This document shows positions 35,237 through 47,615 of a stretch of DNA of 48,767 nucleotides, one piece after another. The stretch is from a virus. The stretch lies in the IMG/VR virus record IMGVR_UViG_3300042863_000767, positions 1-48,767 of that record. The stretch is one strand, 5' to 3'. How positions within the stretch are numbered: position 1 is the first letter of the stretch; each line of letters begins with the position of its first letter. Both the position numbers and the translations under genes were made by a program. The notes beneath the pieces are model-generated. The model saw only the letters and a list, made by a program, of their open reading frames with translations, did not search any database and was not told where the DNA came from.

Positions 35237-36445
35237 TTAAAATAATGCTGATGCGTAAATTAAATTTGTGTCTAATGTTTGTAGTCCTATTGCTGTAAGT
35301 ACTCTATTCAATGGATCAATCATTGCTTTCTCAAATTGAGTATCGTAATCAACTTGTGGTGCTATTTCATAAGGATATTCGTTTGGCATAAATGCATACA
35401 CTTCACTAATAGTTCCTATACAATTATAGATCTTAAGTTTCTCACCATTCTGAATGTGCTTATACTTATTCTTATATTTTTTATTGTTATTTAAAATATA
35501 GTTGTAGTATCCTGCAGCTTTTACATTGGCTGGACATTTTAGTCCAATTTGCAATTCTTTTTGATCGTCAATGATGTACTGATCGATATTGTTGGTTCTC
35601 TTATTAAAAGAGATGTCATCAATATTTGCTAACTTAAATTCCTTCTTACATTTTTTCATGAATTCAACCAATTGTTGCAATTCATTTGCATTTGGTGTTA
35701 CTCTAGATGTAAACAGAATTCTAAGACATTCTACTAATTTCTCTCTTGCAAATTTTGGAGTTGATGATTGGATCGTATCGAATCCAATAGTTTTTACTTT
35801 CTTTAATGATGGGTGACGATCAGTTACTTCTAACTTATCATCCCATGCAATATTTTGAATGTATTTCTTTTTACTCATCCAAATACCATTGTATGCAAGT
35901 GATTCTAATTCGAACACTAAGAAGTTATCAGTATTTCTCTTTTCAGCATATTTCTCCATACATTTCATGATATAATCTTTAAGACGATATGCATAAAATG
36001 CTAGAACGAATTCATCAATTGTCAATTTCTTAGATTCATCTAACCATGTAATTGATTCGTATAAATCTTGAAACTGTACATAACATGAATCGGTGTCAAT
36101 ATAGATTACTGCTGGTTTTTCAACTTTACCTTTAACCTTAATTCCAAATTGTTCATGAACCGCAGTGTCCTTATGCCAGAAATCATTAACATATTTGTTA
36201 AGTATTGTTTCTGAATAAAGGATTGCATTTTTACCTTGTTTGGTAATTGATTCTGCGATATCTAGATTAAAAAAGTGGAACCATTTGTTACCAAAGGCTC
36301 CATAGATAGAGTTTAGAGTTAACTTAACTGCTTGTTCATACGCAGTGAATTTGGCAGAAAGTTGCTTATAGTGGTCTATAAGCAACTTCGCCTCATCATC
36401 TGTTAGTTGGTCAATTGATTTATTTTCTAACTCTTCGATTGTCAT
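35237..36445 (-). CDS. 43B: DNA polymerase family B, C-terminal fragment (palm motifs B, C and thumb)
   Basis: 402 residues with an ATG of its own. It opens inside the fingers domain (IDHYKQLSAKFTAYEQ) and then carries polymerase motif B, KLTLNSIYGAFGNKW (about residues 41-55), and motif C, IYIDTDSCYVQF, with the two catalytic Asp (about 117-119). The SKKKYIQNIAW motif and a long thumb region follow; the C-terminus ends YASALF, possibly the clamp-binding tail. It lacks any exonuclease or motif A, which lie 3.8 kb away in the other fragment. Together the two make about 870 residues, near T4 gp43 (898), so an active two-chain enzyme is likely. Confidence 0.93.
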   Translation of the reverse strand: MTIEELENKSIDQLTDDEAKLLIDHYKQLSAKFTAYEQAVKLTLNSIYGAFGNKWFHFFNLDIAESITKQGKNAILYSETILNKYVNDFWHKDTAVHEQFGIKVKGKVEKPAVIYIDTDSCYVQFQDLYESITWLDESKKLTIDEFVLAFYAYRLKDYIMKCMEKYAEKRNTDNFLVFELESLAYNGIWMSKKKYIQNIAWDDKLEVTDRHPSLKKVKTIGFDTIQSSTPKFAREKLVECLRILFTSRVTPNANELQQLVEFMKKCKKEFKLANIDDISFNKRTNNIDQYIIDDQKELQIGLKCPANVKAAGYYNYILNNNKKYKNKYKHIQNGEKLKIYNCIGTISEVYAFMPNEYPYEIAPQVDYDTQFEKAMIDPLNRVLTAIGLQTLDTNLIYASALF

Positions 36446-40235: not shown

Positions 40236-41648
40236 TTAATTTTTAATTTTTTTTAGTTTTTTTTCTAGCTCATGTGCTTTTTCATAATATTTATATGAAG
40301 TAGCTTTGTAATCTTTACGCTGAGCATATAAATCGCTTAGAATCTTTTTAAGAATTGAGTCTTCTTTCTTAAATACTACACCATTTTCACAAACAATTAC
40401 AGCTGTATCTTTTCGTCTTTCGATAATTTCAGATTCAGGAACTTGTTCAACGAATGACTCGGGAGAAATATTAAACTGTCTCATGATTGAAGGATATAGT
40501 GATGCAAAGTCAAATGCACTTACTCCACTATAATAACCAACAATGGGTTGCTTTACAAATGCTCCTTCAAATTTACCTTCTTTAAGAGAATCTGCTTTGC
40601 CATATTCTATACCAATCTTTTTATTTGTTTCTGCTAATTTTCTTGCTAACAAAGCTTCTGTGATTGCCACTGGTGATGAAGCTTTATACAAAGGCATTCT
40701 TGTAATAGTTGCTAATGTTAAAAGTACTTCCATCGATCTTAATTGTCGATCTATATAATATACAAGACATGAGTCAATTACGTTATAGAACACATACTTT
40801 GTAAAATCATTATTATAAAGATCCGTTAATGATCCAGCATATTTAATTTTGGTTACATCTAATACTGCACCAGAAACGAAGTCTAATGAATTTGATTCTT
40901 TTACAGCAACTGATCTGTCATATTTATCATACAATTGCATGTAATCCAAAATTCCCATGTGCATTGGTCGCTGATCTGTCTTGTCTAAGCTGCCAGTGAT
41001 TGCCACTTCAGTCAGGTCAATCTGTAATCGTTTACATCTATTGACTATATACTGCCAGTCATAGTTGATAAAGTTCCACCCTGTCATCATTGGGAACTTA
41101 GGCAAAAACTTATGTAAGAATGTATACAACATATTGTACTCATCATCAAACTTATGATATGAAAAGTCCCAATCTGTGTCGTAGTTTTTTAAGTGTGCAT
41201 TAGTATCCTTTTCAATTTTAGCAATTTGTTCTGATGTTAAATCTTCTAGACCTAATACAATTGCTTTACGTTCAGGTGTAATAATTGAAAATGTTAAGAT
41301 ACGAGACTTAGCCTCTTCTGGTTTTGGGAAACCATCAACGATCTCAGTTTCAATATCGACGAAGTATGTTCGTGGCATATTGAATTCATAGATCTCTTCT
41401 TTGTCTTTTTCAGGCAAAGAGTCCATGAAATATAACAAACTAAATTTATTAAAAGATTTTGCAATACCTCTTTTAAGTGGTCTATTGTCCCAATTTCTAT
41501 AGGTACTATCTTTATGCTTATCTTTTTCTTCTGTGACTACCCAATTTTGGAATTGGTTTACAGAATATCTCTTGAAGGAAACTTTTCCTTCTTTGTCGTA
41601 ATATGAAACTATTAGTTCCTTTTCGGTTTGTTCTATATCTAATAACAT
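40236..41648 (-). CDS. 43A: DNA polymerase family B, N-terminal fragment (exonuclease and palm motif A)
   Basis: 470 residues. The 3'-5' proofreading site is complete: Exo I TYFVDIETEIV (Asp98, Glu100), Exo II GWNFINYDWQYIV (Asn192 to Asp197) and Exo III YNVIDSCLVYYID (Tyr288, Asp292). Palm motif A is SAFDFASLYPSIMRQFNISPESF (Asp380). The chain ends in the first fingers helix (LYAQRKDYKATSYKYYEKAH) with a Lys-rich stop-proximal tail. Motifs B and C lie in the separate downstream gene. The start overlaps the dUTPase stop as TAATG. Both chains must associate to make an enzyme. Confidence 0.93.
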   Translation of the reverse strand: MLLDIEQTEKELIVSYYDKEGKVSFKRYSVNQFQNWVVTEEKDKHKDSTYRNWDNRPLKRGIAKSFNKFSLLYFMDSLPEKDKEEIYEFNMPRTYFVDIETEIVDGFPKPEEAKSRILTFSIITPERKAIVLGLEDLTSEQIAKIEKDTNAHLKNYDTDWDFSYHKFDDEYNMLYTFLHKFLPKFPMMTGWNFINYDWQYIVNRCKRLQIDLTEVAITGSLDKTDQRPMHMGILDYMQLYDKYDRSVAVKESNSLDFVSGAVLDVTKIKYAGSLTDLYNNDFTKYVFYNVIDSCLVYYIDRQLRSMEVLLTLATITRMPLYKASSPVAITEALLARKLAETNKKIGIEYGKADSLKEGKFEGAFVKQPIVGYYSGVSAFDFASLYPSIMRQFNISPESFVEQVPESEIIERRKDTAVIVCENGVVFKKEDSILKKILSDLYAQRKDYKATSYKYYEKAHELEKKLKKIKN

Positions 41649-42115
41649 TAATAGCCTCGTTTTTGACGGTTTTTATTCTCTTCTGCTTTTGCGAAATAAT
41701 AATTATATGCTGTTTTAGCATCTAGGCCAATTGATGCTGCATAATTAATAAAGAAATGTAATACATCGATCCATTCCATGAACAACTCTTTACGATCATC
41801 TTCTGATAGATCTGAAACTTTCATAGTTTCATATTTTGAGAAGTCTTTTTTCCAGTATTTCCATACTGCATTTCCAGAGCCATCTTTAATACCGCCAAGT
41901 GCATCTGTCATTTCATGTAACTCATCAATAACTGCGTGAGTATTAACATGCCAAAAATTCATTACTTCTCTAATTGACATTTCGTCAAACTTAATTCCAT
42001 AAGTTTTTTCTTGCATCTCTTTTTGATGCGACATAATATCTTCTAGGTGTGTTGTCGATTGGTCGTAAAAGTCTTGTACTTCTAGATCTTTACATTCATT
42101 GTCTATGTTTGCCAT
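41648..42115 (-). CDS. Dimeric all-alpha dUTPase / MazG-like NTP pyrophosphatase
   Basis: 155 residues. Helical metal-site motifs typical of the dUTPase_2 family are present: TYGIKF and HAVIDELHEMTDAL with paired acids, KYWKKD, and EWIDVLHFFINYAASIGLDAKTAYNYYFAKAEENKNRQKRGY. Such enzymes hydrolyse dUTP (sometimes dCTP) to dUMP, feeding thymidylate synthesis and keeping uracil out of DNA, or clearing the pool for a modified base. The gene precedes and overlaps the polymerase N-terminal fragment. Confidence 0.82.
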   Translation of the reverse strand: MANIDNECKDLEVQDFYDQSTTHLEDIMSHQKEMQEKTYGIKFDEMSIREVMNFWHVNTHAVIDELHEMTDALGGIKDGSGNAVWKYWKKDFSKYETMKVSDLSEDDRKELFMEWIDVLHFFINYAASIGLDAKTAYNYYFAKAEENKNRQKRGY

Positions 42116-42168
42116 TTTTTATTTTGTTATAGTATTAATATGAATATTTTTAATTTAGTTTCAGGTTT

Positions 42169-43065
42169 TTATTGGTCCATTTCCAAAACTTCTCCCCATC
42201 CTCTTTGAGAATTAACTGTTTCTTTTGTAGTCATCTGTTTTGGTTTAGGATCTCCACCTACATTCCAAAACCATGCACCTGGATTTCCATGTTTTTTCAT
42301 AAATTCCCATGCTTTTGCATCGTAGTTAGTAGCTGAAGGAAACGGTGGCATATATGCAGCATCTACATCTTGATTAAATTGTTTAGGATGTGACCATACA
42401 TTTGCTCTTCCTAATTCACCATCTTTGATATTACGCGCAACTGCCACTGCATTAAAGTCTGCATCTGGCCATGCGATTTGTAAAGCTCTTTGTAAAACTC
42501 CTGTTGAAATAGCAGACCAAACTTCTTTTGGGTATCCATGAGTCTCTGCAAGATCATATGCTACTTTAACTGCAGCAGCTGTAACTAATTCATGTTTTAA
42601 ACCTAATGGAATAAAAGTTGCATTGTTTTCTTCAGCCCATCTTTTTGCATGTGCATTCAGATTTGGCATTGCTGCGATTCTTTTAAATTTCATTTCAGCA
42701 CCGTTCTCAATACAAATAGCTTGATGATCTGAAATCTCTTTTTGAGATGGACTAAATAAGACCAATTTCTTATTGTACTTTTCAGCTAAGTATGCCAATG
42801 AAATTCCAGCAAAACCAAAACGAGGTTGAACGTATACTAATGTATCTGTTTGACATTTACTAACTAAGATGTCACCAAATCTACATTTAGATCCAAAGCC
42901 CATTAAATCTTCTCGAACTACGTTAAATCCATCATGTTCTACAATTTTAGGAGAATCGAATGGATCTTTCCAATCACCAGCTAAATCTAACCAAGCCTGT
43001 CTATTTGGCATCATTAGATTTAGATCTTGATTTCTATTACTGTTTGTGTGTTTATCGTGTGACAT
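42169..43065 (-). CDS. PLP-dependent enzyme-like protein, fold type II
   Basis: 298 residues. The segment VVREDLMGFGSKCRFGDILVS resembles the ACC-deaminase/D-cysteine desulfhydrase entry 'KREDL-x-GGNKxRK', placing Lys60 as the candidate Schiff-base lysine. Next come a Rossmann-like RFGFAGISLAYLAEKYNKKLVLFSP, a second domain, and VWSAISTGVLQRALQIAW, which suits the phosphate-binding loop. The protein is shorter than catabolic relatives. Substrate unknown; it sits between dUTPase and a LOG-type enzyme, so an amino-acid reaction tied to nucleotide chemistry is one inference. It could also be a non-catalytic homologue. Confidence 0.6.
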   Translation of the reverse strand: MSHDKHTNSNRNQDLNLMMPNRQAWLDLAGDWKDPFDSPKIVEHDGFNVVREDLMGFGSKCRFGDILVSKCQTDTLVYVQPRFGFAGISLAYLAEKYNKKLVLFSPSQKEISDHQAICIENGAEMKFKRIAAMPNLNAHAKRWAEENNATFIPLGLKHELVTAAAVKVAYDLAETHGYPKEVWSAISTGVLQRALQIAWPDADFNAVAVARNIKDGELGRANVWSHPKQFNQDVDAAYMPPFPSATNYDAKAWEFMKKHGNPGAWFWNVGGDPKPKQMTTKETVNSQRGWGEVLEMDQ

Positions 43066-43067
43066 AA

Positions 43068-43736
43068 TTAAAAGTTTGTTTTATCTGATAGTGTATCTGA
43101 ATTAATAAATGTTTTATGATATTCCATGATTTTGTCTCTGGCTTCTTCTGCGCTATCTACGATTCTAAATAGATCAAAATCTTTATCACTCATTTTACCA
43201 TTTTCAAGAACAGTATTTCTAAGCCAATCTACTAATCCTGTCCAGTATTCTTTACCAACTAGGACTATTGGATATTTTACGTTGTGTCCACATTGTGCTA
43301 ATGTAATGGCTTCAAATAATTCATCCATTGTACCAAGACCTCCAGGAAATACTGCAAATGCCTGTGAGTATTTTAAGAACATAACTTTACGTGTAAAGAA
43401 ATATCTACATTCAATACCAAGATCAACATACTTATTCATTCCTGCTTCAAATGGTAATTCAATTCCAATTCCAATAGATTTACCACCAACTTCTTTTGCG
43501 CCGTGATTAGCTGCTGCCATAATACCTGGACCACCACCAGTAATTACTCCAAAACCTTCACAAGCTATTAACTTACCAAATAATTTTGCCTCTTCATACC
43601 ATTTAGTTCCAACTTTGGTTCTTGCACTTCCGAATACGGAAATACATGGGCCCAGTTCGCTAAATGTATCAAATCCTTTTGTAAATTCTCCTTGAATTCT
43701 TAGGATTTGCCATGCATCTTCTGCTTTATTTTTCAT
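43068..43736 (-). CDS. LOG-family nucleoside 5'-monophosphate phosphoribohydrolase
   Basis: 222 residues. The Rossmann-type LOG family (once called lysine decarboxylase-like) hydrolyses the N-glycosidic bond of nucleoside monophosphates. Signature motifs are intact: SVFGSART, GVITGGGPGIMAAANHGAKEVGG (about residues 64-86), then FFTRKVMFLKYSQAFAVFPGGLGTMDELFEAITLAQCG with PGG-x-GT-x-x-E at about 131-139. Bacterial enzymes act on AMP or cytokinin nucleotides. In a phage, salvage of host nucleotides or removal of an unwanted nucleotide is plausible. It lies between the paralogous pair and the PLP-like gene. Confidence 0.88.
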   Translation of the reverse strand: MKNKAEDAWQILRIQGEFTKGFDTFSELGPCISVFGSARTKVGTKWYEEAKLFGKLIACEGFGVITGGGPGIMAAANHGAKEVGGKSIGIGIELPFEAGMNKYVDLGIECRYFFTRKVMFLKYSQAFAVFPGGLGTMDELFEAITLAQCGHNVKYPIVLVGKEYWTGLVDWLRNTVLENGKMSDKDFDLFRIVDSAEEARDKIMEYHKTFINSDTLSDKTNF

Positions 43737-43747
43737 TTTCTTTATTT

Positions 43748-44875
43748 TTATTCGTTAGGATAATCTTTACCCCACAAGTATCGTGTTGTTTCAGCATTTA
43801 CTACAACATTTTCTGTGGGATGTTTTGCTAAATTGAATGCTCCATCAAAAATCCATGTGTATGGAATTCTCTTAGTTGGAGATTTAATGTCATGACTAAT
43901 TGCAATGTGTTTGTAAAAGAAACATGTTTTATCTTCTACATTTAACATCTTTTGACTAGTCATCGGGTTATTTGGATGATTAGCTAAAATATTCATTTGT
44001 TCGATCCACATTTCAGCATACTTATTTTCTGCTATAAATTGTCCATCTTTGTCAATAGAATATTTTACTTTACCATTTAAGTTTGGTCCTCCAAAGATTT
44101 GCATCATACCGTCAAAGTGTCCTGTTCCACCAAAAAGAATTGACTCAGGATCTACAAGATCTGGTCTACTCATTGCAACATAACGTGCAGTGTTCTTACA
44201 TGGATATAATGGACTTCTAAAGTTTTGGTGTTCTTTAAAATACTTTTCTAGAATTTTTGCAAATTCCATCATTGTATATGGTCTCTCTAGATTTTCTAAA
44301 ACATGAGCCATTTCTTTGGCAGCTTTCTTAGGTCCATCTAATAACCAATCTTTAACTTGTGTACCTTTAGGATAATAGATTTGAAATAGATCATTACGTG
44401 CATGTCTGTTTTCAACAAAGTGTTCTCTTGTTTTTTCTTCACCTTCATTAATCAACCTCATAATAGTTCCCCAATGTTCATTACTGAATGAGAATACAAT
44501 CGTATAATAAAGAAGCTTTTCTAGATCTGTTTCATTTTGCATCATATAACAATATGGATGCTCGTGCCAGTGTAATCTGTGGGAAAATATTTGATAATCT
44601 TCCGATAATAATTTATCTTGTCTCTTATCAAACGCATGACAAAATTCAAAGAATTTATCAAAACGTTGTTCTTGAGTCCAATCTTTCATCCAGCTTTCCT
44701 TAGGTTTACCATTATGCATGATAATATCAGAAGTGCCTTCATATGAAATATTGTCATAAACCATATTAGTGTCATCTTCAAATTCAAATAATTTATTCTG
44801 AATTATACTTGACACTTTTCTTTTAGGTTCAATATCACATTGAGGTTCTCTTACTACTTGTTGGTCGTTAATCAT
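43748..44875 (-). CDS. Putative aGPT-PPlase / amino-acid:DNA transferase-like protein, paralogue A
   Basis: 375 residues; family call tentative. The C-terminal half has ARYVAMSRPDL, ESILFGGTGHFDGMMQIF (about residues 244-261) and LNVEDKTCFFYKH (311-323). These recall the glycosylase-like helical domain of thymine-hypermodification proteins (GPGA/GTG turn and the later 'vEH-x-x-C-x-F-x-K' motif, from memory). It aligns without gaps to the neighbouring paralogue from residue 224 to 275. The N-terminal part is acidic, with His/Trp-rich HRLHWHEHPYCYMM. Its start overlaps the paralogue's stop as ATGA, so they are probably made together, perhaps as a complex. Confidence 0.5.
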   Translation of the reverse strand: MINDQQVVREPQCDIEPKRKVSSIIQNKLFEFEDDTNMVYDNISYEGTSDIIMHNGKPKESWMKDWTQEQRFDKFFEFCHAFDKRQDKLLSEDYQIFSHRLHWHEHPYCYMMQNETDLEKLLYYTIVFSFSNEHWGTIMRLINEGEEKTREHFVENRHARNDLFQIYYPKGTQVKDWLLDGPKKAAKEMAHVLENLERPYTMMEFAKILEKYFKEHQNFRSPLYPCKNTARYVAMSRPDLVDPESILFGGTGHFDGMMQIFGGPNLNGKVKYSIDKDGQFIAENKYAEMWIEQMNILANHPNNPMTSQKMLNVEDKTCFFYKHIAISHDIKSPTKRIPYTWIFDGAFNLAKHPTENVVVNAETTRYLWGKDYPNE

Positions 44876-46080
44876 AGTTTACTTACCATTTTTTTATAAT
44901 CTTCTACTGAAACTCCAGCAGCTTGTAATATCTTGTCATCTGATGGAAACGAAGTCATACCATTGAAAGTCTCTACAAGACCTAAATCTAACATAGCTTT
45001 TTGTCTACCAAATGGATGATCGTTTATTGATGAAGAGTTCCACAGAGTGTCCATGTTGATGTGGGCATAGTCTGCTCCCGGTCTTAAGTAGTTTTCGATC
45101 CATCTAATATAATCGCAGGCCACATCTTCTGCGTTATATGGCAATGATCCTGTATCTTCATAGATCTTATTCATAACAGAATCTAAGAATTCTTCGCTTT
45201 TCTTGCCACCACCTGAAATTGGATCTGCCAAATAACCAATACATTCTACTGCATTTGTTCCATAATAAAACATAGATTCTCTGTTCATATATTCTGGGAA
45301 CCAATCTGCAACATCTGCAATTACTGCAGCGTATTGAAATCTATAAGCTCTTAAACCATTGTCTGCATTCCACTTAAACATCCAATCACCCAATTCTCTT
45401 AAGTCTTTTTTATCACCTGTTGTTAGATATGTTGCCATATCTCTTGCTAATCTTGGTGCATATTCACATAAGAAATAATCTCCACCTCGTTTGTAAACAT
45501 ATTCTGGTTTTTTAAACGATGACATACCTACAAAACTATCTTCATCTGATGTTGGTGTAGGTGGTTTTGGGAATGCCGGAAATTGATAACCAACTGAAGT
45601 ATAAAATGGCGTTGGATGATACTTAACTTTCTCACACATTTCTTCAATCGTATTACAATCATGTAAAGATGGCAATATTGTGTTGTGATAACCAGAAGGT
45701 TTGGTTGCATAATTAATTGCAGATCCACAAACTCTGTGTAATATAAACACATAAAGCCAATCTTCTAATCCAAATACTCTTTGTTTGTTTGTCCAATTAT
45801 TTGCAATCTCAAATCTTTGTGGTGTGTAAAGTCCTGCATCCATACGAGACCAATATGGATGATCTTCTGTCCAACCATAAAAACAATCATTGATGATGGC
45901 TGAGAATCCTGCAAATTTACGTTCTACTACATCATATAATTCAATATGGTGCATTAACTCGTCATTAACATCACTTTCATGATGAGGAATATGACCTAAA
46001 TTACTAAGCTCTTGTTGTTTAAGTGCAAGATCATAATATCTTAGGAATTCTTCATAGTATCTGGTAGTTTTTATTTGCAT
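44872..46080 (-). CDS. Putative aGPT-PPlase / amino-acid:DNA transferase-like protein, paralogue B
   Basis: 402 residues; family call tentative. Features include GLEDWLYVFILHRVCGSAINY in the first third, GLRAYRFQYAAVIADVADWFPEY (about 242-264), ESMFYYGTNAVECIGYL (268-284) and NAEDVACDYIRWIENYLRPG (317-335). The E-D-x-x-C-x-[YF]-x-[RK] spacing is the same as in the following gene, and both have [DN]-x-ES-x-[FL]-x-[YG]-GT. I read these as variants of the helix-hairpin-helix and 'EH-x-x-C' motifs of the HMUDK_hel/aGPT-PPlase superfamily. Catalysis and substrate are unproven. Confidence 0.5.
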   Translation of the reverse strand: MQIKTTRYYEEFLRYYDLALKQQELSNLGHIPHHESDVNDELMHHIELYDVVERKFAGFSAIINDCFYGWTEDHPYWSRMDAGLYTPQRFEIANNWTNKQRVFGLEDWLYVFILHRVCGSAINYATKPSGYHNTILPSLHDCNTIEEMCEKVKYHPTPFYTSVGYQFPAFPKPPTPTSDEDSFVGMSSFKKPEYVYKRGGDYFLCEYAPRLARDMATYLTTGDKKDLRELGDWMFKWNADNGLRAYRFQYAAVIADVADWFPEYMNRESMFYYGTNAVECIGYLADPISGGGKKSEEFLDSVMNKIYEDTGSLPYNAEDVACDYIRWIENYLRPGADYAHINMDTLWNSSSINDHPFGRQKAMLDLGLVETFNGMTSFPSDDKILQAAGVSVEDYKKMVSKL

Positions 46081-46081
46081 A

Positions 46082-46231
46082 TTACTTAATTACTTTCCAA
46101 TTAAAAGGATCTCTATTTCTTTGATATTGCATCATAGACCATTCTAATTCATTTGTTTTAATTTCTAATATCTCTATCGTACCATTAGTGTACGTTATTT
46201 CTATTTTGTATTTTTCGTCATTCTTTTCCAT
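46082..46231 (-). CDS. Small hypothetical protein (49 aa)
   Basis: ATG at 46231, stop at 46082, 1 base before the next start. The product reads as beta-strand then helix (KYKIEITYTNGTIEILEI, then NELEWSMMQYQRNRDPFNW). Tight packing between two real genes and normal codon use support it. Its place directly before the paralogous pair suggests a shared unit. No family is recognised. Confidence 0.65.
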   Translation of the reverse strand: MEKNDEKYKIEITYTNGTIEILEIKTNELEWSMMQYQRNRDPFNWKVIK

Positions 46232-46232
46232 T

Positions 46233-47306
46233 TTAAAAAAGTGCAAGCGTTTGTTTAATTAGTTTTTTGTTAGGTTCATTCTTAGCAACATCCCATCTGT
46301 AAAATTCACGGGCAATGTGTACTGATTTTGGTTTTTCCATAACATCAAATGTCAATTCGTTAAGTGCATTAAAATACACTTCTGGATGTTTATATGATTT
46401 CCATCCATTTCTTTGACACATATCATCGATAGATGAATTAATTTCTTTGACTAAAGCTGCACGTTCTGACCAAGTTCCAGTGTATGGTGTTCCTTTATAG
46501 TAACCTGTTTTAGGCAACACTCTTGATTCATTTTCAATAGGTAAACAATGTACTACTTCAATATTGGTAACACCACGTTCTTGTAGTTTCAATAATTCTT
46601 GCTCATATTTAATCATAAGATTTTTAACAGAAGCTGAAGGATTATCTTGTCTCATTAAATGGTGTCTTACGTCAATATTACCCATATAAACCCTAAGATC
46701 AGTAATCCATGGGTATACATATGTGTCTAATCCTCGTTTAAGTGCACCGTGCATAGTTAAACCATCATGACGTTGAGTCATGTAACCTGGAGAATATTGG
46801 CTAAATGAATGGCTATCACCAAAACAAAGTTTTTCTGTTTTAGCAATGTGATCAATTCTTGGAATATCGTTTGCACAAATTTCTCTTATTGATTCAATAT
46901 CTGGTTCGATAGATTTAAATAAGTCAGTTCCCGTTTTAAGTCTTTGTTCAATAAGTGTAGCAATACATGGCATATCATGATGTAAACTATACATCTGTGC
47001 ACCGCTTTTGATACGAATTAATTGGTGGTACAAATCATCGTTCGCACCACCAAAAATATTAAAAGTACCTTTGAATTCCATACCATGTTCGATAAGAATA
47101 CAATCGTAATCTTGCCATTTGGTTTCGGTATCTGTGATAACGTCTACTCTTTCAAATCCCAAGTTGGTTATTTGATTAGCTAAATGAAATGCCCAACCAC
47201 TTTTGTGTGAGCTTTCCTTTGGACTTAATTTACCAACTAAGGCTGCAATCGCTATACGAGACGACTTATCGGTAACATAGTCTGTTAAGTACTTAAATTC
47301 TGACAT
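46233..47306 (-). CDS. SGNH-hydrolase-like protein with N-terminal Rossmann-like domain
   Basis: 357 residues. Residues 1 to about 150 form an alpha/beta domain (RIAIAALVGKLSPKESSHKSGWAFH, then VDVITD and DYDCILIEHGMEF) that recalls glycosyltransferase-like folds. The second part has LCFGDSHSFSQY (block I Ser), YMGNIDVRHHL (block III Asn and His) and a closing DVMEKPKSVHIAREFY with a possible catalytic Asp/His. SGNH enzymes are esterases or acyl transferases. It begins the unit that includes the paralogous pair, so it may process an acyl group on a nucleotide or glycan; substrate unknown. Confidence 0.55.
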   Translation of the reverse strand: MSEFKYLTDYVTDKSSRIAIAALVGKLSPKESSHKSGWAFHLANQITNLGFERVDVITDTETKWQDYDCILIEHGMEFKGTFNIFGGANDDLYHQLIRIKSGAQMYSLHHDMPCIATLIEQRLKTGTDLFKSIEPDIESIREICANDIPRIDHIAKTEKLCFGDSHSFSQYSPGYMTQRHDGLTMHGALKRGLDTYVYPWITDLRVYMGNIDVRHHLMRQDNPSASVKNLMIKYEQELLKLQERGVTNIEVVHCLPIENESRVLPKTGYYKGTPYTGTWSERAALVKEINSSIDDMCQRNGWKSYKHPEVYFNALNELTFDVMEKPKSVHIAREFYRWDVAKNEPNKKLIKQTLALF

Positions 47307-47312
47307 ATGATA

Positions 47313-47615
47313 TTATTTAATAGGATCTTCTGATTCACCATAACCATGCTTTTCAACATAGTTGTCAAGAGCACCTAAGTATGCAACTGCATCTAATAGA
47401 TTATCTTGTTTATAATTATATGAATGACGACTCAATTTAAGTGCAACTAAAGCTGCATACATGTCAGATCCATTCATTTCTTTACCAGTCATGCCATTAA
47501 AAATCATTGCAGCTCTTCGCATACCTTCTTCGAAAGGTCCGTACATGCGTTCTTTTTCTTCTGAGCGTTCGTTAACAATTTTGTTAGCTTCTTCTAAAAT
47601 ATTAGTTTTGTTCAT
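47313..47615 (-). CDS. Small conserved phage protein (DUF6378-like)
   Basis: 100 residues. The helical pattern with a KERMYGPFEEGMRRAAMIF core, ALVALKLSRHSYNYKQDNLLDAVAYLGALDNYV resembles a small family of phage proteins of unknown function (DUF6378, from memory), related in shape to MazG-like helices. Lys, Arg and the final D-x-x-D-A acids could form a metal site. Located at the start of the nucleotide-metabolism block, after a -10-like TATAAT sequence. Confidence 0.65.
   Translation of the reverse strand: MNKTNILEEANKIVNERSEEKERMYGPFEEGMRRAAMIFNGMTGKEMNGSDMYAALVALKLSRHSYNYKQDNLLDAVAYLGALDNYVEKHGYGESEDPIK

Follow-up and report, generated by a model that had tools for sequence, protein, structure and literature searches.

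A cluster of seven genes at positions 41648-47306 of a phage DNA record (IMG/VR virus record IMGVR_UViG_3300042863_000767, positions 1-48,767; this whole stretch of 48,767 bases is referred to here as the window) belongs to a conserved gene module that is judged, with moderate confidence, to specify a pathway by which phage DNA is hypermodified after replication; the most likely substrate of this pathway is 5-hydroxymethylcytosine (5hmC). The core of the module consists of an SGNH-like protein, a putative amino-acid:DNA transferase with a predicted DNA-glycosylase fold (A) and a pyridoxal phosphate (PLP) enzyme, usually accompanied by a second transferase-like protein (B). Support for the pathway comes from the conservation of the module, the likeness of A and B to PUGT (the phage PaMx11 5-phosphomethyl-deoxyuridine (5-phosphomethyl-dU) glycinyltransferase; PDB 8z2n/8z2m), and the fact that the PLP enzyme has a homologue in phage M6. 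It also comes from an aspartate-type (Asp-type) hydroxymethylase gene, which divergent relatives carry beside A and which three large contigs from nearer relatives carry at another place. To our knowledge, amino-acid:DNA transferases are known only from thymine-based pathways. If the reading is true, a cytosine version would widen phage DNA chemistry and provide new enzymes with which 5hmC could be tagged; this base is of interest in mammals too. What appears to be new is a glycosylase-fold transferase route on 5hmC that usually employs a pair of these proteins along with an SGNH-like one and lacks a recognised DNA kinase; no description of the module was found in the open-licence literature searched, as judged by title or abstract start.

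Conservation and layout of the module

Relatives of B and A were found in 265 and 87 IMG/VR stretches, respectively, whereas a tblastn search of 50,697 phage records returned no match to B and one chance-level match to A. From IMG/VR, 80 loci were kept for A relatives and 80 for B relatives. A species-genome collection yielded 6 loci, all of them contigs of metagenome bins judging by their titles, and a cellular origin of the module was rejected on that account. Merging identical A sequences reduced 169 loci to 112 distinct A sequences (some from partial open reading frames (ORFs)), which were divided into near loci (A at least 70% identical; 55 sequences) and divergent loci (the remaining 57). 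Counting only loci with 3.5 kb of upstream or 4.5 kb of downstream sequence, a PLP gene is located within 4.5 kb downstream of A in 33/34 near and 39/41 divergent distinct loci, and an SGNH-like gene is found upstream of A in all 31 near loci and downstream of it in 36/41 divergent loci. B lies downstream of A in 26 of the 34 near and 37 of the 41 divergent loci. Since the loci were picked via A or B, the co-occurrence of the SGNH-like and PLP genes is the informative part of this pattern. The co-occurrence of the module genes exceeds chance, and the cluster is real and conserved, with the SGNH-like protein, A and the PLP enzyme as its core and B as the usual partner of A. The LOG gene, which an earlier interpretation made from the DNA letters alone (the sequence-only reading) had listed as a component of the cluster, occurs in 12/34 near and 0/41 divergent loci; it was rejected as a core member and is accessory only.

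As that reading had described, the seven ORFs read from the window are tightly packed on one strand, with overlaps or short gaps between them. These ORFs and the linked gene directly upstream are as follows.

47313-47615, minus strand: DUF6378 protein (PF19905 1.1e-11), directly upstream of the SGNH-like gene; linked
46233-47306, minus strand: SGNH-like protein, 357 residues; core; GDSH at 163-166, G-N-I-D at 209-212, SVH at 328-330
46082-46246, minus strand: small ORF, 54 residues from TTG or 49 from ATG; no function assigned; not core
44872-46080, minus strand: A, amino-acid:DNA-transferase-like protein with predicted DNA-glycosylase fold, 402 residues; core
43748-44875, minus strand: B, second amino-acid:DNA-transferase-like protein, 375 residues; usual partner of A
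43068-43736, minus strand: LOG-like phosphoribohydrolase family protein, 222 residues (Lysine_decarbox PF03641 1e-31); accessory
42169-43065, minus strand: PLP enzyme, fold type II, M6-like subfamily by sequence, 298 residues (phrog_7093); core
41648-42115, minus strand: MazG/dUTPase_2-like nucleotide pyrophosphohydrolase, 155 residues (phrog_173 5.5e-13; phrog_18650 'dUTPase' 2.3e-9)

The 49-residue protein reported earlier corresponds to the small ORF when it is read from its internal ATG. Of 146 loci, 78 gave a BLAST match to this ORF, L001 (the locus of the window itself) being one of them, and 98 gave one to the DUF6378 protein. The dUTPase gene proposed for the cluster is borne out by the family matches of its last product, for which a role as a dCTP/dUTP pool enzyme is plausible.

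Transferase-like proteins and their PLP partner

Structure, motif and context link A and B to the ADDT/PUGT class, and the two proteins are probably transferases, as remote members of the glycosylase-fold class. AlphaFold2 (AF2) models (mean pLDDT 86.3 and pTM 0.86 for A; 84.7 and 0.83 for B) were compared using VIA-align with PDB chains preselected by Foldseek. The best match for both models is PUGT (8z2n), with a Z score of 9.8 for A (root-mean-square deviation (rmsd) 3.9, 212 residues aligned) and 9.3 for B (rmsd 4.2, 227 residues aligned, 15% identity). A comparison with DNA glycosylases had been suggested by the sequence-only reading; the models share their fold, and 8-oxoguanine glycosylases rank behind PUGT in both cases (Z 7.5 and below). 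When Foldseek was run against BFVD, B matched the A-type family (E 1.5e-4), an aGPT-PPlase clade 1 protein (E 5.9e-4) and the PhiW-14 HMUDK helical domain (E 0.03), and A matched the B-type family (E 5.7e-3); names such as 'Amino acid:DNA transferase' in BFVD may be machine-predicted labels and were not used as proof. The description of A and B as paralogues is supported by structure comparison and is weak by sequence, given that BLASTP of A versus B found nothing significant (best E 0.36) and that hhalign of the two families gave 79 collinear columns at E 0.0096, a score reached by 1 of 150 column shuffles.

The two motifs on which the enzyme class was originally recognized, E-D-x-x-C-x-[YF]-x-[RK] and ES-x-[FL]-x-x-GT, were both found in A (E318-DVA-C322-DYI-R326; ESMFYYGT) and in B (E314-DKT-C318-FFY-K322; ESILFGGT), and the E and C of the first are invariant in 56/56 A and 47/47 B sequences. 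A C-terminal E-x3-C-x-W motif was defined in this analysis from 27 ADDT sequences. In the form E-x3-C-x-[WFY] it is common to ADDT (27/27), HMUDK (6/9), A and B, with an aromatic Y or F where ADDT has W (E318/C322/Y324 in A; E314/C318/F320 in B). Because the motif also turns up in 2 of 24 further families (proteins of 300-500 residues in the divergent relatives), it serves as supporting evidence only.

A and B have no Pfam or PHROG family match. The ADDT family PF18724 has no match in the 56 A sequences, the 47 B sequences or any of 14 contigs carrying A or B (A/B contigs; M6 control 2.3e-48), so A and B are not filed as ADDT/PUGT members, and the proposal that they work like these enzymes rests on the fold. 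Pfam searches of every member of the two families returned only unrelated families in 1-5 members (best E 0.00077, Agd3_CE, in one B member), hmmsearch of both families against PDB sequences gave nothing better than E 1.2, and hhalign of both to ORF233c of Aeromonas phage 44RR2.8t gave no significant match. Column shuffles reached the observed hhalign score in 14/150 cases for A versus HMUDK and 36/150 for B versus HMUDK, compared with 0/150 for ADDT versus HMUDK. The aGPT-PPlase/AADT-like class originally proposed for A and B therefore stands by fold, motif and context and lacks a significant profile link.

By sequence, the PLP protein of the window belongs to the M6-type PLP subfamily. It matches phrog_7093 (4.1e-40) and, below the curated cut-off, the Pfam PALP family (2.4e-5). 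Its family aligns with the M6 PALP family in hhalign at P 96.5 and E 8.4e-10, and the C-terminal motifs PFP-x-YD-x-K and FWN[VI]G are common to the two. A generic cysteine-synthase-like control gave E 0.0022 and does not have the C-terminal motif; in a PDB profile search, the window PLP family matched cysteine synthases only, at about 0.002. The gene order in M6 is ADDT, PALP, radical SAM, HMUDK, Nmad5 and a thymidylate-synthase-like gene. The pairing of a transferase with a type II PLP enzyme, which the sequence-only reading regarded as unfamiliar, is already found in M6, where PALP adjoins ADDT and is a homologue of the window enzyme; the idea that such an enzyme is new beside a transferase was rejected. 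The M6 PLP enzyme acts on an amino acid attached to DNA. M6 DNA is reported to contain 5-(2-aminoethyl)deoxyuridine (PMC6449724). In Erythrobacter phage ZS04_7 (L151:2326-4764), an M6-type PLP domain and an N6_N4_Mtase match occur in one polypeptide, which supports action of this PLP subfamily on DNA. Microcystis phage Mae-JY30 contains a similar PLP gene adjoining a methylase-matching gene, and an unannotated 175 kb record (PP337211.1, Escherichia phage ERS-1) matches the M6 PLP enzyme at four places.

Target base and activation of the hydroxymethyl group

Cytosine is the likelier target because thymidylate-synthase homologues of the relatives carry Asp at the site of T4 Asp179. This residue of T4 gp42 is reported to determine the choice between deoxycytidine monophosphate (dCMP) and deoxyuridine monophosphate (dUMP) (PMC6400193). 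The homologue set comprised 36 sequences, namely 33 distinct sequences from 41 hydroxymethylase (HM) ORFs and three from the contigs G007, G009 and G011. Asp occupies the site in 35/36 and the catalytic Cys148 is kept in 36/36, the sole Asn being that of a bacterial thymidylate synthase on a metagenome-assembled genome (MAG) contig. Asn is also present in 3/3 thymidylate synthases (44RR, G007 and G011) and in 27/27 M6-type enzymes. The PF00303 enzyme of M6 is presumably a dUMP hydroxymethylase. Judged by these residues, the relatives' gene is of the dCMP-hydroxymethylase type. The substrate is likely 5hmC, and would by extension from the relatives be the same in the window's own phage. The sequence-only reading, which had proposed thymine, picked the enzyme class correctly from motifs alone; it probably named the wrong base, and its view of LOG needed correction.

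PF00303 (thymidylate-synthase family) matches occur in 6/16 A/B contigs, and Asp-type copies are present on five of the 16 (G007, G009, G011, G013 and G014). The Asp-type gene is directly upstream of A in G013 and G014; in G007, G009 and G011, the Asp-type copy is accompanied by an ordinary thymidylate synthase gene at another position of the contig. Amongst divergent loci, 23/29 have a thymidylate-synthase homologue and 17/29 a dCMP deaminase in the 3.5 kb upstream of A. A hydroxymethylase-type gene lies beside A in 0/31 near loci, and ~88-110 kb upstream of it in G007, G009 and G011. Far from the A/B module of G007, a cysteine-synthase-like gene, a thymidylate synthase and a LOG-looking gene occur together (L154:581-3134).

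The suggested search for a thymidylate-synthase homologue and a base kinase succeeded in its first part, through the Asp-type homologue of the relatives, and not in its second, as a kinase of 5-hydroxymethyldeoxyuridine (5-hmdU) DNA was not found. HMUDK_hel (PF18723) is absent in 16/16 A/B contigs, which are possibly incomplete (M6 control 1.4e-57). AAA_33 matches were obtained in 9/13 records at E<=0.01 and exceeded the cut-off in 4/11 A/B contigs (those in G008 and G009 being ORFs of 241 residues), but they were also present in 14/14 control genomes and are therefore uninformative for the kinase hunt. In G013, which looks nearly complete by gene content, a strict Walker A motif occurs in 7 of 173 ORFs of at least 80 residues; by eye, three of these matches are spurious and the others are SbcC-like, clamp loader, DnaB-like and PhoH-like. 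A divergent P-loop (e.g., UvsX-like) would escape so strict a scan, which revealed no obvious kinase of the small P-loop type. The same contig contains a radical-SAM-looking ORF outside the A/B module (133174-133971; CxxxCxxC by eye), and the M6 thymine pathway has a radical SAM gene.

The SGNH-like protein may instead act on the hydroxymethyl group, a suggestion made by analogy with a fused relative. The window protein matches phrog_13881 (3e-56) and phrog_17781 (4.7e-54), with no Pfam match and no PDB profile match (hmmsearch, nothing better than E 1.2). GDSH and H330 are invariant in 19/19 aligned sequences (two Aeromonas phages included) and G-N/S-I-D is conserved; the predicted SGNH membership is an assignment by motif alone. 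Of the 43 phage records with a relative of this protein, 38 are Aeromonas records. In 44RR2.8t ORF233c (L150:7971-10358) and UP87 (L170:4847-7264), the SGNH-like domain is fused to an HMUDK_hel-like C-terminal part, whose match to that family is below the cut-off (E 0.0036 and 0.0022, respectively). This C-terminal part is present in 19 Aeromonas records, and the 44RR protein, used as a query against viral contigs, matched only 44RR itself. The helical domain of M6 HMUDK spans residues 171-475, and its N-terminal part is presumably the kinase. The SGNH domain would thus stand in the kinase's place of an HMUDK-like architecture, which suggests, as a hypothesis, action at the hydroxymethyl group.

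The N-terminal half of 44RR2.8t ORF233c shares homology with the SGNH-like protein of the window (35% identity), and the 44RR2.8t genome has a gene-42 homologue. ORF233c differs from the window protein in its fused domain, and no A, B or PLP homologue was found in the Aeromonas records. Aeromonas phages 44RR and 31 are reported to contain a dCMP hydroxymethylase and to lack the known T4 glucosyltransferases, and further modification of hydroxymethylcytosine in such phages was left open in that 2010 source (PMC2993671). The SGNH-helical fusion in 44RR, a cultured phage, and in 31 bears on this question. A broader proposal extends amino-acid:DNA transferase chemistry to cytosine: one or two glycosylase-fold transferases would place an amino-acid-derived group on 5hmC, the PLP enzyme would trim it on the DNA, and an SGNH-type enzyme would take over from a DNA kinase in activating or derivatising the hydroxymethyl group. 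The 44RR-type fusion would then show this replacement in a phage that is in culture. The proposal is put forward tentatively, as a possibility that is rather doubtful in its full form.

Several SGNH-like genes have other neighbours. The unfused gene of Aes012 (L169:3761-7035) is beside a GT-B-looking protein (by eye) and a UDP-galactopyranose mutase (PF03275 5e-54), a neighbourhood that suggests a sugar on hydroxymethylcytosine and makes an SGNH role in glycosyl or acyl chemistry possible. In two divergent loci, a C5-cytosine methyltransferase family gene (L121:7574-8782, PF00145 1.2e-15; G013:64928-66136) and a glycosyltransferase-looking gene come directly after the SGNH-like gene.

Proposed pathway, alternatives and genomic setting

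In the proposed pathway, a dCMP hydroxymethylase encoded outside the window would make 5-hydroxymethyl-dCMP for incorporation into phage DNA, aided by MazG-like enzymes that would hold dCTP low. The hydroxymethyl group would then be activated on the DNA, candidates for this step being the SGNH-like protein and a kinase that escaped recognition. A and B would flip the base out and couple its 5-methylene to an amino acid or a comparable amine donor, in the way that PUGT joins glycine to 5-phosphomethyl-dU. The presence of two transferase-like proteins could reflect two substrates or two successive steps, with the B step dispensable in some phages. Finally, the PLP enzyme may tailor the attached amino acid on the DNA (e.g., by decarboxylation, leaving an amine), and the outcome would be phage DNA hidden from host nucleases. 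We infer each catalytic step, the donor, the activation step, the benefit and the base in the window's own phage.

This pathway would resemble known systems in part. The M6/PaMx11 thymidine hypermodification locus (ADDT/PUGT, PALP, radical SAM, HMUDK, hydroxymethylase) is similar in its glycosylase-fold transferase class, the E-x3-C-x-[WFY] motif and the adjacent PLP enzyme of the same subfamily. In contrast to that locus, the window-type module usually has two transferase-like proteins rather than one, an Asp-type hydroxymethylase and an SGNH-like protein, without a PF18723 or PF18724 match. The T4 5hmC pathway (gp42, glucosyltransferases) has in common a dCMP-hydroxymethylase-type gene, a nucleotide pyrophosphohydrolase and T4-like replication genes, but the module differs in the presence of A, B and the PLP enzyme and in the absence of a T4-type deoxynucleoside monophosphate (dNMP) kinase from the contigs searched. 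In uncultivated phages, 5hmC is reportedly modified further by a carbamoyltransferase, another enzyme class than that of A and B. The resulting 5-carbamoyloxymethylcytosine was described using MetaGPA (PMC8670742). Amino acids on phage cytosine also have a precedent, as CmoX/CmoY of Synechococcus phage S-B43 are reported to give 5-carboxymethylcytosine and its glycine amide, an amino acid at C5 (PMC12783734). The enzymes involved there are a carboxymethyltransferase and an ATP-dependent amide ligase, in contrast to the glycosylase-fold transferases proposed here.

A number of observations weigh against the 5hmC pathway. The window (a 48.8 kb record) carries no hydroxymethylase, in line with the earlier statement that a hydroxymethyl-dUMP synthase is missing from it, and no Asp-type hydroxymethylase was found on 11/16 A/B contigs searched, including G001 (165 kb), the nearest long relative; of these 11, five (G001, G002, G006, G008 and G010; 123-183 kb) reach only ~42-87 kb upstream of A and six are fragments of 52-80 kb. 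The set in which Asp predominates was collected with Asp-bearing seeds, which could favour Asp. A T4-type dNMP kinase is absent in 11/11 contigs, although 44RR has one, and no DNA base kinase was found in A/B contigs, though the PUGT substrate is phosphorylated. VIA-align Z values of 9-10 are modest for helical folds, where such values can be common. With Foldseek alone on PDB, B yields nothing at E<=0.001, and PUGT is not among the 50 matches listed. The profile comparison with HMUDK_hel and aGPT-PPlase/ADDT that had been proposed for A and B gave no hidden Markov model (HMM) match and no significant hhalign match, leaving both proteins without a significant sequence-profile link to ADDT or HMUDK. 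In addition, B is missing downstream of A in some loci (e.g., L088, L091, L104 and L108), namely in 8/34 near and 4/41 divergent ones.

Thymine hypermodification, in which A and B would act on 5-hydroxymethyluracil from a dUMP hydroxymethylase or on oxidised thymine, has in its favour that the closest solved structure (PUGT) acts on 5-phosphomethyl-dU and that the PLP enzyme falls in the subfamily of the M6 thymine pathway. PF00303 detects the M6 enzyme, yet the 6/16 matching A/B contigs contain only thymidylate synthases and Asp-type paralogues, and the absence of HMUDK_hel from the A/B contigs likewise speaks against this explanation, which is considered unlikely. A role of A and B as DNA glycosylases, which would repair the phage's DNA or attack host or unmodified DNA, is improbable: the ranking of PUGT above all glycosylases for both models argues for transferases, and the constant PLP partner, together with the hydroxymethylase in divergent loci, fits modification better than excision, even though the fold is common to OGG/AGOG glycosylases and a UDG-superfamily gene (PF03167 3e-5) is present in 8 of 32 divergent loci examined.

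Two further explanations were weighed. The SGNH-like protein and its neighbours could put a sugar or acyl group on 5hmC, with A and B in a linked glycosylation route; the gene neighbours in Aes012 (the GT-B likeness being by eye only) and a glycosyltransferase-looking cluster (c22) in 4/32 divergent loci are compatible with this. However, the glycosyltransferase-looking proteins have no significant Pfam match, and none of ten window proteins scanned matched a glycosyltransferase, no systematic search for such enzymes having been made, so that this route also seems a poor prospect. The LOG and MazG-like family matches are to proteins acting on nucleotides and could indicate a pathway that handles free nucleotides, for pool control or salvage, and is unrelated to DNA modification. 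This appears very improbable, given that LOG is absent from all 41 divergent loci and that Erythrobacter phage ZS04 has a member of the PLP subfamily and a DNA-methylase match within a single polypeptide.

Outside the cluster, the window has genes for a terminase, portal, major head protein, tail sheath, UvsX-like recombinase and DNA polymerase (two ORFs), on the basis of which it is taken to come from a T4-like phage with a contractile tail and to be a fragment of its genome. The two ORFs of the family B DNA polymerase (35237-36445 and 40236-41648) are separated by other genes, including two ribonucleotide-reductase-looking ORFs that were named by eye.

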